NCBI GenBank assembly: GCA_022071945.1
Contig: JAJVIN010000002.1
Location: forward strand, 1 to 64,000
From: Thermoanaerobaculia bacterium
GTDB taxonomy: Bacteria; Acidobacteriota; Thermoanaerobaculia; UBA5066
Direction: 5' to 3'
Length of the DNA stretch: 64,000 nt
Shown here: positions 6,387-13,459 of the stretch, in pieces
Layout of the letters: the number at the start of each line of letters is the position of its first letter
How positions within the stretch are numbered: position 1 is the stretch's first letter
Notes under the pieces: generated by a model
The model's database searches: none
Told to the model about the DNA's origin: nothing
What the model saw: only the letters and a program-made list of their open reading frames with translations
Made by a program: the position numbers and the translations under genes

Positions 6387-7028
6387 CTAGCCGGTCACGA
6401 TCTTGGTGCCGGCGGGTGGGTTCAGGGTGAAGTCCGAGGCGGGCCTCTTCTTGCCGGGCTCGAGCTTCGTGAAGGTGAAGGTGGTCTTGTTTCCGGCCGG
6501 GTCGAGAACGACGAGTCTTTTCAGCTCGCCGTCCCGGCTCGCGAAAACCGTGATCTGGCCCGGCTCGCGGCCGCTCCTGGGCGAAAGCTGCAGATCGACG
6601 GCCCCCGCGGCCGTCTCGACGACCTTGGCCTCGAACTGCGAGAGGACTTGACGCGGATCACTCAGAAACAGGAGCGGGAGGCGAGCCCTCTCCTCGTTCG
6701 TGAGCGTCTTGACGATCATTTGCCTGTCCCTCGCGACGTACTGCCGTCCCGCCTTGCCGTCGAAAGTGAAGAGCTTGCCCTCCGGACCGTCGTATTCGAA
6801 CCGGAGGGAGTCGGGAGCCTGCAGCACCAGGGTTCCCGTCTCCGGCGCCGTCTCGCCGAATCCGGAGGGGGCGTAGGTCTGGACAAAAGTCACTTTTACC
6901 GACGGGCTCGAGGAGTACTTCTTCTGGATTCTCTCGAGCATCGTCGTGGGGGAGAGGGGGCCCTGGCCGGTCGCGGGCCAGGCGAGAACCAGGAGGAGTG
7001 CCGAAAGGACGGTCAGCCGATGGCGCAT
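6387..7028 (-). CDS. lolA: Outer-membrane lipoprotein carrier LolA
   Basis: LolA shuttles lipoproteins from the inner-membrane LolCDE complex to the outer membrane. The open frame extends upstream, but the ATG at 7028 gives a clean signal peptide (MRHRLTVLSALLLVLAWPATGQ) and lies 10 bp after the purH stop, so it is taken as the start (213 residues). The mature part follows the LolA pattern: a helix with LERIQKKYSSSPSVKVTFVQ, then beta strands such as GTLVLQAPDSLRFEY and LFTFDGKAGRQYV. It is co-transcribed with purH upstream and yajQ downstream. Confidence 0.85.
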   Translation of the reverse strand: MRHRLTVLSALLLVLAWPATGQGPLSPTTMLERIQKKYSSSPSVKVTFVQTYAPSGFGETAPETGTLVLQAPDSLRFEYDGPEGKLFTFDGKAGRQYVARDRQMIVKTLTNEERARLPLLFLSDPRQVLSQFEAKVVETAAGAVDLQLSPRSGREPGQITVFASRDGELKRLVVLDPAGNKTTFTFTKLEPGKKRPASDFTLNPPAGTKIVTG

Positions 7029-7038
7029 GGGTGCTCTC

Positions 7039-8589
7039 TCAATGCCGGAAATGGCGGTTCCCCGTGAACAGCATGGCCACATGCAGCCTGTTGGCCGCCT
7101 CGATGACGTCGCGGTCCTTGATCGACCCACCGGGCTGGATGACGGCCGTCACGCCGGCCTGGGCCAGAACCTCCAGCCCGTCGGGGAAGGGAAAGAAGGC
7201 GTCGGAAGCGGCCACCGCTCCCTTGGCCCGGGGCCCGGCCTTCTGGACGGCGTCCCGGCAGGCATCCACCCGGCTCGTCCGGCCTCCACCGATCCCGACG
7301 GTGGCCGTGCCCCTTGCGATGACGATGCCATTGGAGATCACGCCTCGAACGGCCCGAAAGGCGAATCCGAGCGCCTCTACCTCTTCATCCGTCGGATCTC
7401 GCTCCGTGACGGACTTCCAGCCGCTCGAATCATCGACTCCGAGATCCAGTTCCTGAACGAGAAGTCCTCCGTCGATGGTGCGGAACTCCAGCGGCCGGGC
7501 CGGAAGGGCGGAAAGACCCGGAATCGAGAGGACGCGGAGGTTCGGCTTTTTCGAGAAGACCTCGAGGGCGTCCTCGTCGACGCTCTCGGCCACGATGACC
7601 TCGAGGAAGTTCTTCGTCATCAGTTTGGCCGCCTCCGCGTCAATGGTCCCGAGAACGGCCACGACCCCGCCGAAACCCGCGATCGGATCAGATTCCCAGG
7701 CGGCCTGAAAGGCTGCCGCGACCTCGGGGCCCGACGCCATGCCCGAGGCGACCCGGTGCTTGACGATCACGACTCCTCCCCGGCCGAGCGCCCTCGCCGA
7801 GAAGAGAGCGGAGTCGGCATCGAGGAAGTTGTTGTACGACAGCTCCTTCCCCTGGAGCTTCGAGAAGGAGGTGAGGGTCCCGTGGGCCCGGACCGGGCTT
7901 TGATACAGGGCCCCGCGCTGGTGAGGGTTCTCTCCGTACCTCAGCTCCTGCACCTTCTCGAACGCGGCCGGGAGCCGTTCCGGAAACGCGGGAGTCTCCG
8001 TCTGACGGCCGAGCCAGTCGCTGATGACGGCGTCATAGGCGGCCGTTCGCCGGAAGACCTTGACGGCCAGCCTCTGCCTCGTTTCGAGCGTGGTTGCGCC
8101 GTGCCCCGATGTCAGCTCCTCCGCGACTTCCGGGTAGTCGGCGGGATCGCAGAGAACGGTGACGTGTGCATGGTTCTTGGCGGCGGCTCTCAGAAGAGAC
8201 GGGCCACCGATGTCGATCTCCTCGATGGCCTCCGCAAGGGAGACCGGCCTCGTGACCGCTGCCTCGAACGGATAGAGGTTGACCACGACGACGTCGATCG
8301 GCGAGATCCGGTTGTCCGCCGCCTCCTGCCGGTGCGCGGCGACGGCAGGGTCGAGGAGAATCCCGCCGAAGAGGGCCGGATGGAGGGTCTTCACCCGCCC
8401 GCCGAAGATCTCCGGGAAGCCTGTCAGGTTGCTCGCGAGCGTGACCGGAAGACCCGATTCGGACAGGTGACGGGCCGTGCCCCCCGTCGAGATCAGCTCG
8501 AAACCGAGCTCGTGAAGCGTCCGGGCGAAGCCCGCAAGCCCGGTGCGGTCCGAGACCGAGAGAAGCGCCCGTTTCTTGTTATCTGACAC
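7039..8589 (-). CDS. purH: Bifunctional AICAR formyltransferase / IMP cyclohydrolase
   Basis: PurH carries out the last two steps of purine synthesis, formylating AICAR and closing the ring to IMP. The GTG at 8589 is chosen as the start because an AAAGGA site lies seven bases upstream and the protein then begins VSDNKKRALLSVSDRTGL, as in the family (516 residues). The N-terminal cyclohydrolase domain contains SSGGT-like ISTGGTARHL. The C-terminal transformylase domain contains RYGENPHQRGALY and the KHRVASG segment with its active-site Lys and His. The start overlaps the upstream envelope-protein gene by 11 bp, suggesting coupled translation. Confidence 0.96.
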   Translation of the reverse strand: MSDNKKRALLSVSDRTGLAGFARTLHELGFELISTGGTARHLSESGLPVTLASNLTGFPEIFGGRVKTLHPALFGGILLDPAVAAHRQEAADNRISPIDVVVVNLYPFEAAVTRPVSLAEAIEEIDIGGPSLLRAAAKNHAHVTVLCDPADYPEVAEELTSGHGATTLETRQRLAVKVFRRTAAYDAVISDWLGRQTETPAFPERLPAAFEKVQELRYGENPHQRGALYQSPVRAHGTLTSFSKLQGKELSYNNFLDADSALFSARALGRGGVVIVKHRVASGMASGPEVAAAFQAAWESDPIAGFGGVVAVLGTIDAEAAKLMTKNFLEVIVAESVDEDALEVFSKKPNLRVLSIPGLSALPARPLEFRTIDGGLLVQELDLGVDDSSGWKSVTERDPTDEEVEALGFAFRAVRGVISNGIVIARGTATVGIGGGRTSRVDACRDAVQKAGPRAKGAVAASDAFFPFPDGLEVLAQAGVTAVIQPGGSIKDRDVIEAANRLHVAMLFTGNRHFRH

Positions 8590-9184
8590 CGTACGGTCCT
8601 TTCGACTCGGGGTACTGCAGGACGACTGAAACATCCCCGCCCACGCCGTTCCAGATCCAGGTGAAAAGGCGTGTCCCCGCCGTCACGGCCGAATCGTATG
8701 CCGAAGTGAAGGATCCGGCGGGGGGCGCGGCCGGAAAGACGGATGGCCGCTCGGGGAGCGCGAACGCCGGGTAGCCGAAGAAGCTGCTCCGGTTCCGAAA
8801 AGCGGCCTCGATCGCCCTGGCGTCGGCGGCCGGGGGCGGGTAACTCATGGCGACCGAGTGGACGAGAACCCCGAGAGCGTAGACGGTCTCCGAGAACGAC
8901 TGCTTGTTCCGGAGGGCCGAAACGATCTGACTGGCCCGGGCTTTCGCCGCGGCCTGGTGCTCCTGCGTGCTCAGTGCGTGGTTCTCGCGGGCCGCGGCCT
9001 CGGAAACTCCCGCCATCAGGCGTTCCCTGTGCCGGGCGATCTGGCGTTTCAGATCGGGGGGCGCGTATACAGAAGTGTCCGCCGCCATCATGCGCTGCGC
9101 CAGCAGAGGCCACGAGGGCGCTGCACCCTGGGACCGCGCGAGGCCGGGAATCAGGAGAACGGCGAAGAGTACAGCGAATCTCAT
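8579..9184 (-). CDS. Secreted protein of unknown function
   Basis: This 201-residue protein has a clear signal peptide (MRFAVLFAVLLIPGLARSQG). The mature part has an Arg-rich helix with IARHRERLMAGVSEAAARENHA near residues 48-70, then a segment with an Ala/Ser-rich helix and aromatic residues near the C-terminus (FTWIWNGVGGDVSVV). The family is not recognised. It overlaps purH and begins three bases after the stop of the large outer-membrane protein, so it probably belongs to the same envelope function as that protein. Confidence 0.75.
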   Translation of the reverse strand: MRFAVLFAVLLIPGLARSQGAAPSWPLLAQRMMAADTSVYAPPDLKRQIARHRERLMAGVSEAAARENHALSTQEHQAAAKARASQIVSALRNKQSFSETVYALGVLVHSVAMSYPPPAADARAIEAAFRNRSSFFGYPAFALPERPSVFPAAPPAGSFTSAYDSAVTAGTRLFTWIWNGVGGDVSVVLQYPESKGPYGVR

Positions 9185-9187
9185 GTT

Positions 9188-12172
9188 TCAGAAGGGCTTG
9201 AGAAACGTGAGGTTGAGGACGAGGCCTTTCTGACCGCGATCGCGGCCGACGACCGGGAGACCGGCATCGAGCTGGACGATGGTCGACCAGGGTCCGGAGA
9301 ACTGGCCGGAGATTCCGGCTCCGCCGAAGCTGGCCCAGTCAAGATTAGCCGGCTCGTCCTTCACGAAGGCGTGTTCGTACAGACCCTCGAGCCGGAGGGC
9401 CTGACCGAAAACGAGCCCGTAGGCCACGCGGACAATGCCCGCCTTCTCGGCCCGCAGGCTCCCGGAGCTGAAGCCGCGCAGCGAGTTCCCTCCGAAGGAC
9501 CCGAAAGTGATCTTCGAGAAGCGGTCGGCGTTCTCGGTCCCGAGGTACGAAACCGAGGTCCGCAGACGCCGGAATCCCGAGAAATGGAAGTCCTTGGAGA
9601 GCTGGAGGGCGTAGGTCTGAAAGTCATCCTTGCCGGGGTCGTAGTCGGGATTGCCCGGGTACCCCCACGGCTCCCATTTCGAGCGGTGATTCCAGCCGTA
9701 GCGCGCGCTGATCGAGAAGCCCGAGAGGTCCCAGATCAGGCGGCCCTCGAGCCGGGTGACCGTGTGGTCGGACGGCACGGCGAACCCGGGGGCCATGTCG
9801 TCTCCCGCCGCGAAGTCCCGGTACGAGATCCCCGCCGTGGCCGTGAACTTCAGATGACGCCCGATCGGGAACCCGAAGTTCAGATTCCCCGCCGCGGGGC
9901 GCTGCTTGACCTCCTCGGAATCGACCTTCTCGCCGTTCCGGTAGACGGTGTCGCTGCCCTGGATCGCGATCCCGAAGATGTCGACCCCCAGATCGATCTT
10001 CGATCCGAAGAGCGCCGGATCGTTGTACGAGCCGGCCAGGAGAACCCCGCCGAAGAAGACCTGCATTTGTTCCTTCCGCTTCCGGAAGTCGAGGTCCAGG
10101 TAGTAGAGGCCCACGAGCGGAAGCGGGAAGTCGTACGAGCTGTCGTAGAAGAGCCCGGCCAGGCCGAAGAGCTTCGCCGTCTTCGGATCTTCCACGACGA
10201 CGCGGTTCCCCTCCTTGTCCTTTTCGAGGTAGCGGACGCCCCTCTCGGTGTCGCGCACCATGACGGCCTTGGAGGCTGCGGCGGCAGCCTTCTCCGCCTC
10301 GTAGTCCTCGGGGTCGAGCCGGACGTTTTCCAGGACCGTCTCTCTTTCCAGAACCGTCGTCCTGGAGAAGGTTTTCAGGATCCACTGGCCCTTCGTCCTG
10401 ACGGGAAACCTGAGGGCGATCCCGTCTCCGCGGTCGTCGACGATCTCGAAGTCCGAGACCTCGTCGACCGACTGCACCTCTCCCTTGAGGTTGAGCTGCC
10501 GGGTGACCACCCGGATCGCGCTGTAGTCGTTCTTCGAGATGAAAACACGGCCCTCGTAGACGGCGTCGCCCGCGGCCCTCTCTCGCGGGGAGAAGTCGAG
10601 CACGAAGCACCGGATTCCGTTGACCGTTTCCTCGTCTCGCAAGGCGTACTGATAAGCGTCGTTGAAGGTGATCTCGAGCGGGAGGTCCGACACCTTCTCG
10701 GGCTGAAGCAGGGGGAGCTCCGGGAACTTCTTGCCCCGCCACTTCACACCGTTGAAGTAGGCCTCCGTCCAAGCCCAGTCGTAGCCCTTCCCCGGCTCGA
10801 AAAAGAAGGGTCCCCTGAAGGTGAGCTCGAACGTGTTGTTCAGCTCGGGGAACTTGAACCGGATGGCGGTCTGGTTGATTGCCGAGAAGCGGTTCCACCT
10901 CGCATCGCGGGCGGCCCGCCAGACCTGGTGACGTGCCAGGATCTCCTCGGCGGTGGCGAGCCTCTCGGCCGAGACTCCGATTCGGGCTTTCGCCGCCTCG
11001 GCGGGCGTCTTCTCGCGAGCCGTCAGACGGATCACGACTGGCCCGTTCTGAGTCGACACCGAAAGCTTGGGCGGGCCCGAGCTCTTCGGAATGTCGAAGC
11101 GTCCCGTCCGCCCCGTCATGAGCTCGGTGACTTCGGCGGACGCATAGGACGGCGCATCCAGAGTGACCGTCACGGGGCCCCGGTAGGGTTCTCCGCCCTC
11201 CTTGATTCCCGTGACGAGGACGAGCCCGCCCAAGTCCAGTCCCGAGACGTACCGGTAGACGCTGAGAGGAAGACCGTCCCGCGTGGCGGCCGTCGTGGGC
11301 CGGGTATCGGGGCCGTAGTCTCCACGAAGCGCGATCCCGGAGCGAACCAGGATTCCGTCCTCGACCGCGGCCGAGTGAAGAGGAGCTGCTGAAAAGGGCG
11401 CCCCGGCCGCCGCGTACCGCGCCGCGAGGTCGAGGAGCGTCACGGCAGTCTCGACCGGCGGCACGATCACCATCAGAGGGCGGCCGAAGGCGATCTCGTC
11501 CGCCTCGGCACGAAGGGCCTCGGGCGAGGGGGGCGTCCTCCTCGCTCGCAAACCCAGGATGTCGGCAAACGCCGCGGTCTCTTCCGTCTTGAACCTCGGC
11601 GTGGCCGCCGGGAACAACCTGCCGCTTTCTTCCTGGTCCAGCACGAGGGCGATCTGAACCGTGGGGTTCAAAGCCCGGATCTCGGCCGCGATCTTCTTCA
11701 GGACGAACCGGCGGGCCGCAAGGTCTCCGGTGAGGTCCGGGAAGAGAAGCGCCACGAGATCGGCCTTTTCCGCGGCCTCCAGAAGCGCGCCGAGTCCCGG
11801 GTAGAGCGTGTCGGCCGTCGCCACCTCCGCGCCCCGGGCGTCTGTCGGGACCGGGACGTTGGGGAGCTCGACGACGAGCCCGCTCCGAAACCCCGCCGAA
11901 GCGCAGCCCTTCGTGAGCTCCCGGACCGTTGCGGCCAGGCCGGCAGCCTGGAAGGTGCCGGCACGGACGTCCAGGAGGAGCCCCGGGGCATTGGGGGAGA
12001 GAAGAGCCGGACGGGCCTTCTGGATGAGCGCAATCCTGGGATCGGAAGGGCCGACGACGATCCAGGGAGCCAGATGGGGTTGGGCGGAGAGAGGGAGCGC
12101 CTCGTCGTTGGCCGAGGCGCTCACACGGAGAATCAACAGGGCCAGAACGAGGGCCGCGCGCGCGCGAATCAT
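9188..12172 (-). CDS. Large outer-membrane beta-barrel protein with two periplasmic regions
   Basis: The ATG at 12172 has an AGGAG site five bases upstream and gives a signal peptide (MIRARAALVLALLILRVSASA); 994 residues. The N-terminal region (about 30-330) is an alpha/beta segment of unrecognised type. The middle (about 430-620) has the strand pattern of lipoprotein-sorting, LolA/LolB-like folds (VYEGRVFISKNDYSAIRV, GQWILKTFSRTTV). From about 670 to the end it is a series of amphipathic beta strands, with the Omp85-like FGSFGGNSLRGF and a final Phe in FLKPF, the usual outer-membrane sorting signature. It probably sits in the outer membrane with large periplasmic domains. Export or assembly of an envelope component is possible, but the substrate is unknown. 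Confidence 0.7.
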   Translation of the reverse strand: MIRARAALVLALLILRVSASANDEALPLSAQPHLAPWIVVGPSDPRIALIQKARPALLSPNAPGLLLDVRAGTFQAAGLAATVRELTKGCASAGFRSGLVVELPNVPVPTDARGAEVATADTLYPGLGALLEAAEKADLVALLFPDLTGDLAARRFVLKKIAAEIRALNPTVQIALVLDQEESGRLFPAATPRFKTEETAAFADILGLRARRTPPSPEALRAEADEIAFGRPLMVIVPPVETAVTLLDLAARYAAAGAPFSAAPLHSAAVEDGILVRSGIALRGDYGPDTRPTTAATRDGLPLSVYRYVSGLDLGGLVLVTGIKEGGEPYRGPVTVTLDAPSYASAEVTELMTGRTGRFDIPKSSGPPKLSVSTQNGPVVIRLTAREKTPAEAAKARIGVSAERLATAEEILARHQVWRAARDARWNRFSAINQTAIRFKFPELNNTFELTFRGPFFFEPGKGYDWAWTEAYFNGVKWRGKKFPELPLLQPEKVSDLPLEITFNDAYQYALRDEETVNGIRCFVLDFSPRERAAGDAVYEGRVFISKNDYSAIRVVTRQLNLKGEVQSVDEVSDFEIVDDRGDGIALRFPVRTKGQWILKTFSRTTVLERETVLENVRLDPEDYEAEKAAAAASKAVMVRDTERGVRYLEKDKEGNRVVVEDPKTAKLFGLAGLFYDSSYDFPLPLVGLYYLDLDFRKRKEQMQVFFGGVLLAGSYNDPALFGSKIDLGVDIFGIAIQGSDTVYRNGEKVDSEEVKQRPAAGNLNFGFPIGRHLKFTATAGISYRDFAAGDDMAPGFAVPSDHTVTRLEGRLIWDLSGFSISARYGWNHRSKWEPWGYPGNPDYDPGKDDFQTYALQLSKDFHFSGFRRLRTSVSYLGTENADRFSKITFGSFGGNSLRGFSSGSLRAEKAGIVRVAYGLVFGQALRLEGLYEHAFVKDEPANLDWASFGGAGISGQFSGPWSTIVQLDAGLPVVGRDRGQKGLVLNLTFLKPF

Positions 12173-12236: not shown

Positions 12237-13304
12237 TCAGGCTTTCCTCTTCTCTGTGGCGGGTTTCTGGTCCTTCGGCTCGGCGGGAACCGGGGCCTCC
12301 ACGGCGGGCAGCCCGAGCCTCTCGCGGATCTTCACCTCGAGCTCGTGTCTCAGATCCGGGTTGTCGCGGAGGAAATTCTTGGCGTTTTCCCGCCCCTGTC
12401 CAATTCTGAGGTCACCGTAGCTGAACCAGGATCCGGACTTTTCGACGAGCTTCAGATCGAGGCCCAGGTCGACCATCTCGCCCGTCTTGGAGATCCCCTC
12501 TCCATAGGTGATATCGAACTCGGCGGCCTTGAAGGGCGGGGCGACCTTGTTCTTCACCACCTTCACCTTCGTCCGGCTCCCGACGACGTCCTCGCCTTCT
12601 TTGATGGCGTTGGTCTTGCGGATATCGAGGCGGACGGACGCATAGAACTTCAGGGCGCGTCCCCCTGTCGTGGTCTCGGGGTTGCCGAACATCACGCCGA
12701 TCTTCTCCCGGATCTGGTTGATGAAGATCAGAGTTGTCCGTGACTTCGAGACGGCGGCGGTGAGCTTGCGCAGGGCCTGAGACATGAGGCGGGCCTGCAG
12801 CCCCACGACGGCGTCCCCCATCTCGCCCTCGATTTCGGCCTTCGGTACGAGCGCGGCGACCGAGTCGATGACGATGATGTCGATGGCGGCCGACCGGACG
12901 AGGGCTTCCGCGATCTCCAGTGCCTGCTCGCCAGAATCCGGCTGAGAGACCATCAGGTTGTCGATGTCGACGCCGAGCTTTCTGGCGTATTCCGCGTCCA
13001 GGGCGTGCTCCGCGTCGATGAAGGCCGCCAGGCCGCCGAGCTTCTGGGCCTCGGCGATGACGTGGAGCGTCAGGGTTGTCTTGCCCGAGGACTCCGGGCC
13101 GTAGATCTCGAGGATCCGGCCACGGGGAACACCGCCGATGCCCAGGGCCGCGTCGAGGGCGATCGAGCCTGTCGGAATGGCCTGGATCGCCTCCTGCGGC
13201 CTGTCGCCGAGGCGCACCAGAGCGCCCTTCCCGAACTGCTTGTCAATCTGCTGGAAAGCGGCCTCCAGGGCCTTGAGCTTGTCTCTGTCGATCGTTCCGG
13301 GCAT
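12237..13304 (-). CDS. recA: Recombinase RecA
   Basis: RecA forms filaments on single-stranded DNA, drives strand exchange and stimulates LexA cleavage. The ATG at 13304 gives the normal start [20 protein letters not shown] and 355 residues. Walker A is GPESSGKTT (about 69-77) and Walker B lies in [10 protein letters not shown]. The L1 and L2 DNA-binding loops include [20 protein letters not shown] and the NPETTTGG segment. The C-terminus is rich in Lys, Glu and Pro, as usual. A TATAAT box lies 32 bp upstream of the start. I could not identify a LexA operator with confidence. recX is not adjacent but lies at 44.5 kb. Confidence 0.98.
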
Positions 13305-13335
13305 GTGCGCCTCGCTTTCACCAAGAAACCGGCGG

Positions 13336-13341
13336 ATTATA
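13336..13341 (-). promoter_or_regulatory. Promoter -10 element of recA
   Basis: On the minus strand a perfect TATAAT occupies 13341-13336, followed by CCGCCGG. No TTGACA-like -35 lies 17 bp upstream. The expected start of transcription is about 25 bp before the recA ATG. Confidence 0.5.
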
Positions 13342-13459
13342 GAGATTCCGGGGAATTCGTTCGCTCGCATGACCCCCAGGTCAGCCAAGCCAGGCCTTGA
13401 GTCTCGTCCCATCGGGTAGACTGCCCGCCGGAAAGACCTGACCGGGAGGCACCTTCAGG

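Follow-up and report, generated by a model that had tools for sequence, protein, structure and literature searches.

The window analysed here, a 64,000-nucleotide stretch from a Thermoanaerobaculia bacterium (contig JAJVIN010000002.1), carries at positions 9188..12172 on the minus strand a gene for a 994-residue protein, which raises the question of what a lipoprotein-sorting-like domain does when it is joined in one chain to a C-terminal membrane barrel. A first-pass annotation, made from the letters alone, had listed this open reading frame (ORF) without its strand, had not recognized the combination of domains and had suggested that the protein may help to transport lipids or lipoproteins. 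Our analysis points to an outer-membrane member of the Omp85 superfamily that has a LolA-like domain in place of POTRA domains and passes acyl-chain cargo from it to the barrel, a reading to which we assign a probability of roughly 0.45. The predicted domain order is a signal peptide, a TIM-barrel-like domain, a probable beta-sandwich, the LolA-like domain and the C-terminal membrane barrel.

The gene and its family

The gene is a single ORF of 994 residues without an internal stop (stop codon at 9188-9190), and its frame has stayed open in relatives, as only one of the matches listed from a protein search of 60 genomes had an inner stop. Taken together, these observations identify it as a real gene at the coordinates first annotated. 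The protein is predicted to be secreted, with a hydrophobic signal peptide read from the sequence at approximately residues 1-22 (12107..12172, minus strand), which lacks a lipobox cysteine. The protein search found the gene once in its own genome; a profile search counted a second match there, outside those listed, and the single copy number rests on the protein search.

Matches at E 0.001 or better were present in 52 of the 60 genomes searched, the window's own included, and the one close relative with a name was an 'Acidobacteria bacterium' metagenome assembly with 59 % identity. The family alignment comprised 41 rows, namely the window protein and 40 wider loci out of the 52 matching genomes, and two of these rows were without most of the N-terminal part. 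A profile built from it matched 153 of 297 genomes of the phylum, 102 of them strongly (E 1e-25 or better, by our own count from the listing); the other 51 matched weakly and, among the matches listed, over the LolA-like segment. Adding 20 sequences drawn from the 102 strongly matching genomes gave a widened alignment of 61 sequences. In complete family members the open frame spans roughly 820-1120 residues; fragments cut off by a contig end are shorter and some stop-to-stop frames longer. A very divergent second copy was seen in some genomes, with open frames of 1051-1117 residues; the match covered the barrel and, for one genome, the LolA-like part as well.

Neither the plasmid collection nor the viral contigs that were searched held a match to the family protein, and carriage of the gene by a plasmid or virus was set aside. 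As a separate observation, plasmid-labelled Bacteroides and Phocaeicola records (e.g. OY725981 and OY725932) carry recA and further genes typical of chromosomes, among them dnaK as read from the sequence, and look like chromosome fragments.

A distant Omp85-superfamily barrel

The C-terminal region (approximately residues 641-994; 9191..10252, minus strand) was compared by hhalign with 34 Omp85 barrels from the window's own and ten related genomes, some of them cut at a contig end, whose frames had been picked with a profile of eight own-genome barrels and not with the family profile. The family barrel of 41 sequences gave 93.6 % (E 2e-7) and the widened profile of 61 sequences gave 95.8 % (E 8e-9, 289 columns), whereas reversed controls stayed at 0.1-0.2 % and TonB-receptor barrels at 1.9-2.9 %. 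Against the eight own-genome Omp85 barrels, values of 91.9 and 85.7 % were obtained. The alignments placed LRGF, residues 898-901 (9470..9481, minus strand), against the RGF/Y motif of Omp85 barrels; at this (V/L)RG(F/Y) position late in the barrel, the glycine G900 was found in 61/61 sequences and the arginine in only 15/41. The terminal Phe of the window protein, which had been noted at the outset along with the barrel, recurs in 29 of the 41 members. By profile comparison the barrel is a distant Omp85-superfamily barrel, a relationship that the first-pass annotation had raised.

POTRA domains, a common but not universal feature of Omp85 proteins, were sought by profile, and the family gave 0.0-0.2 % against BamA and other POTRA profiles while the positive control gave 99.6 %. 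The Pfam Omp85 model (PF01103) matched none of the 41 members at E 0.1, and the family locus was absent from the ten own-genome matches to that model at E 1. Judged from their sequences, the Omp85 proteins of the window's genome include one of the WD40 type and three of the patatin type in addition to those of the POTRA type.

A LolA-like domain in the middle

The region directly before the barrel (approximately residues 393-640; 10253..10996, minus strand) reached only 15-18 bits with the Pfam LolA_like model (PF17131), below its cut-off of 30. That model matched 27 of the 41 members at E 0.1, none of them over the cut-off (best, 27.4 bits). Profile-profile comparison with 19 free-standing acidobacterial LolA_like proteins, taken from 26 loci, gave 98.1 % for the 41 sequences against 0.1 % for the reversed control, and 98.6 % for the 61 sequences. 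Three of these 19 small proteins were scanned with PF17131 and all three matched, one over the cut-off. The classical LolA family (PF03548) did not match the middle domain, which gave 0.2-0.4 % with a profile of 12 LolA sequences that includes the same gene twice. The lipoprotein-sorting-like middle proposed earlier was thus recovered as a domain that, by profile, is LolA-like; the comparison with Lol proteins held for LolA_like and failed for classical LolA.

Within this domain lies a family signature, PELPLLQPEKV (residues 484-494; 10691..10723, minus strand), in which P487 was conserved in 61/61 sequences, P484 in 58/61, P491 in 54/61 and K493 in 53/61. A model of the isolated domain, built from two sequences and with a mean predicted local distance difference test (pLDDT) score of 40.0, showed one N-terminal helix followed by strands. 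Its top structure match was Porphyromonas gingivalis LolA3 (Z 6.4 over 87 residues), tied within one Z unit with OspA, RseB, VioE and others, and a Z below 8 is not proof; 15 of the 50 structures listed were LolA or RseB/MucB, as counted from their titles. Searching solved structures by sequence returned only 4z48 (DUF1329 by its title) over the LolA-like part, with E 0.52 and 0.022, and over the N-terminal part only a TIM-barrel enzyme (E 0.086). A direct sequence match to solved structures was set aside.

A LolA-like domain fused to an Omp85-type barrel appears to be a previously undescribed architecture within the Omp85 superfamily, and one that the Pfam Omp85 model misses. Neither LolA-like nor TIM-barrel architectures figure among those described in the consulted part of a 2014 survey of Omp85 proteins (PMC4104836). 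A literature search found no description of the protein among the titles listed, preprints and many subscription papers lying outside its scope.

Proposed function and its alternatives

The LolA-like and barrel parts share a high conservation that the N-terminal part lacks. Among the 41 members, at least 90 % conservation was reached in 26 columns of the LolA-like part and 39 of the barrel part, and in a single column of the TIM-barrel part. Across the 61 sequences, 61 columns of the C-terminal 600 residues had one residue in at least 85 %, and the residues invariant in 61/61 include P487, P498, Y509, G541, R657, P685, G688, D883, R884 and G900. This joint conservation suggests a shared mechanistic task. 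The placement of a LolA-like domain directly before an Omp85-type barrel would fit a hand-over of acyl chains, and it is because of this fusion, not of the neighbouring genes, that transport of lipids or lipoproteins is our best guess; the same role had been proposed from the presence of purH and lolA nearby, an argument that proved weak.

In the mechanism we propose, the LolA-like, TIM-barrel and probable beta-sandwich domains would all face the periplasm. The LolA-like domain would receive acylated cargo in a greasy cleft, either a lipoprotein from LolA or a phospholipid, and the acyl chains would then pass to the adjoining barrel, through whose seam they might move into the outer membrane or across it. 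For the TIM-barrel part we envisage a spacer or docking function and not that of an active enzyme. A carrier-type domain and an Omp85-type barrel joined in one widespread protein point to direct hand-over, and the question of lipoprotein or lipid delivery can thereby be approached through one gene and one structure. Also counted in favour of the mechanism are the rarity of Pfam LolB matches in the phylum, the Borrelia protein pair, the lipid-gene clusters around some DUF5686 genes and the lipid-kinase gene found next to the family gene in part of the loci, all described below.

Several observations weigh against this mechanism, and they concern the barrel, the cleft, the gene surroundings and the search for LolB. 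Halves of the set of eight own-genome barrels gave only 3.2 and 12.0 %, the four patatin/WD40 barrels alone gave 3.1 % and another small Omp85 subset 3.0 %, and the signal therefore needs the pooled profile. Two misframed subsets gave 0.2 and 0.1 %, and misframed Omp85 control sets gave either 0.1 % (TonB receptors 4.1 %) or 56-69 % (TonB receptors 4.7-10.4 %). Neither the barrel nor the LolA-like cleft has a confident structure model, the mean pLDDT being 35.5 for the full-length protein and 40.0 for the isolated domain.

LolA-like folds also bind proteins, RseB/MucB being such a protein binder; at E 0.1 the MucB/RseB model matched 5 of the 41 members, and such structures are also among those listed for the isolated domain. 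It is conceivable that the LolA-like domain docks unfolded polypeptide in place of POTRA and that the barrel, like BamA, TamA and FhaC, folds or secretes outer-membrane or surface proteins, since it is related to Omp85 proteins, whose studied members mostly act on proteins according to the consulted parts of two papers (PMC4104836 and PMC11116518). However, the same and related genomes already encode Omp85 proteins whose long N-terminal parts are of the POTRA type. Studied LolA-fold proteins are, moreover, mostly carriers of lipids or lipoproteins, and we regard a role in protein assembly or translocation as unlikely.

Across the 40 loci, no fixed neighbour accompanied the gene from lineage to lineage. 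The lack of an operon partner kept across lineages would also suit a structural outer-membrane protein without a transport role, both domains serving as envelope scaffolding or as a stress sensor, and a LolA-like fold is used as a sensor in RseB. The high conservation that the LolA-like and barrel parts share speaks instead for a common mechanistic task, and makes a scaffold or sensor quite improbable.

Pfam LolA was found in 95 of 99 genomes of the phylum and Pfam LolB in 4 of 99, so that an outer-membrane acceptor is not evident in the phylum. Beyond the E. coli model, lipoprotein insertion into the outer membrane and flipping to the surface are still an open question, and for Bacteroidota the consulted part of a 2025 paper says as much (PMC11885536). 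A bolder version of the hand-over mechanism would have the window protein act as acceptor and insertase or flippase in one, with a LolB-like domain on an Omp85 barrel and the lipoproteins or lipids delivered by LolA being either inserted or flipped to the surface by that barrel. If true, this would supply the outer-membrane counterpart missing from LolB-less diderms, as a fused form of what may be a separate-gene system in Borrelia; we consider it doubtful. The Pfam LolB model misses divergent LolB, its control having matched only E. coli of 14 genomes, and an unseen LolB is therefore possible; in Bacteroidota, LolB was found by distant homology, as that part of the 2025 paper reports (PMC11885536). 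Furthermore, of the 99 genomes in which LolB was sought, 33 had a strong family match by our own count, and most genomes without a LolB match were also without the family. Replacement of LolB as judged by mutual exclusion was set aside, as none of the four LolB genomes had a strong family match but, with the family in only 33/99, this is no evidence.

The N-terminal region

The large N-terminal region that had been annotated was borne out as a signal peptide followed by a TIM-barrel-like fold in a low-confidence model, and it is probably periplasmic. The full-length prediction, built from two sequences only, was poor; it placed alternating strands and helices at residues ~37-282, with a block pLDDT of 48-77 over residues 61-240 that dropped to 31-49 in the flanks. 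Among solved structures, the N-terminal model matched glycoside-hydrolase-type and other TIM barrels at Z 13-14, the glycoside hydrolase PslG ranking first. Similar scores came from TIM barrels of many functions, so this match indicates fold and not function. The TIM-barrel-like domain was assigned to residues ~31-285 (11318..12082, minus strand) and is poorly conserved. A probable beta-sandwich linker domain follows at residues ~286-392 (10997..11317, minus strand), as suggested by a strand-rich, helix-poor prediction of low confidence.

The similarity to PslG, together with the proteins in the same genome that read as patatin-Omp85, could be taken to mean that the barrel anchors or exports a TIM-barrel domain acting on envelope or external polysaccharide, as in surface display by patatin-Omp85. 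The TIM-barrel part is, however, the least conserved of the protein. A catalytic acid pair was sought in it across the members and was not conserved, D204 being the only invariant residue among D and E and D285 standing at 85 %, a result that is sensitive to how this fast-changing region is aligned. In one taxonomic family of the class this part is also shorter, with 191-256 residues before the LolA-like domain (five loci, starts chosen by hand). The lack of a conserved acidic pair suggests that the TIM-barrel part is non-catalytic, and surface display seems to us very unlikely. In 20 of the 41 members a CxxC motif (e.g. CTLC, CNPC) was seen near the mature N-terminus, which may form a disulfide where the TIM barrel begins; it was absent from the window protein and its order.

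Gene neighbourhood

Directly downstream, starting 3 nt past the stop codon, is a gene for a 201-residue signal-peptide protein without a Pfam family (8579..9184, minus strand), which is probably co-transcribed with the 994-residue gene. At E 1e-8 it occurred in 7 of 40 loci, all of them from the taxonomic family to which the window belongs, and at E 1e-5 in one further locus of the order. The genes purH (7039..8634) and lolA (6387..7028) lie downstream on the same minus strand, as the first-pass annotation had stated, but as the second and third genes and not the first two; the product of lolA may be a cargo donor. Upstream on the same strand, recA (12237..13412) ends 64 nt before the ATG and was the most widely kept of the neighbours tested.

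Within 2.5 kb of the family gene, recA was present in 16, purH in 11, lolA in 9, PgpA in 10 and a lipid kinase in 11 of 40 loci, several of which are cut by contig ends. A lolA gene anywhere in the locus was found in 11/40. The neighbours purH and lolA were confined to the window's order, other lineages having, by crude gene calling, different neighbours, and function as read from them was set aside; this neighbourhood is lineage-specific and is weak evidence for function. The lipid-kinase gene, of the YegS/DAGK type, was head-to-head with the family gene in all 11 loci that have it, and PgpA was encoded on the strand opposite to the family gene, neighbours that hint at most at a lipid theme.

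Comparison with known systems

The closest likeness in domain order was found in DUF5686 (PF18939) of Bacteroidota, for which 11 of 13 records were used and on which our literature search found no paper. The order of a LolA-like domain followed by a C-terminal part with a barrel-type ending occurs, by profile and sequence, both in the Acidobacteriota family and in DUF5686. The LolA-like parts of the two matched at 71.3 and 81.5 % (reversed 0.2 %), and the LolA-like segments of DUF5686 matched the small LolA_like proteins at 94 %. A comparison of the two barrels, also suggested at the outset, gave 0.8-1.0 %, a lack of signal that is no proof of difference; the DUF5686 barrel showed no preference between Omp85 (2.1 %) and TonB receptors (1.7 %). 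The N-terminus differs, being a CarboxypepD_reg-like domain in the two full-length DUF5686 proteins scanned and a TIM barrel in the window's family. PF18939 exceeded the Pfam cut-off in 0 of 297 phylum genomes and matched 2 of the 41 family members at E 0.1 (best E 0.0047) without reaching it. Membership of the family in DUF5686 was set aside on these results, with homology seen for the LolA-like part.

Among five Bacteroidota loci viewed widely, DUF5686 genes lay in phospholipid or inositol-lipid clusters in three. In Spirosoma and in Hymenobacter they adjoin genes for PgpA, GtrA and PAP2, and in Hymenobacter also one for a CDP-alcohol phosphatidyltransferase, while the Bacteroides finegoldii gene lies immediately upstream of an inositol-3-phosphate synthase cluster. 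No phospholipid gene stood beside the copies seen in Parabacteroides and B. ovatus. The clusters provide a lead to the function of DUF5686.

With the LolA_like family (PF17131) and the small acidobacterial LolA_like proteins, the window's family shares a homologous domain (98 %). These proteins are free-standing, the 19 used having open frames of 232-353 residues, whereas the window's family has the domain joined to a barrel. With the Omp85 superfamily, which includes BamA and TamA and the WD40-type, patatin-type and POTRA-less proteins, it has in common barrel homology at profile level and the terminal Phe, and a segment of it aligns with the RGF/Y-type motif, its glycine being invariant and its arginine present in a minority of members. 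It differs in the lack of a detected POTRA domain, in having LolA-like, probable beta-sandwich and TIM-barrel domains instead, and in being missed by PF01103.

A parallel with separate genes comes from Borrelia, in which, according to the consulted part of one paper (PMC13078400), the POTRA-less Omp85 protein BBJ25 and the LolA-like protein BBJ28 are encoded by separate genes of one cluster and were proposed to export a non-polar ligand. There, as may be the case here, a POTRA-less Omp85 barrel is proposed to work with a LolA-like protein. In Borrelia, however, the two are separate and the cluster also holds a LolCDE-like ABC transporter (PMC13078400), and we liken the systems by description and not by sequence.

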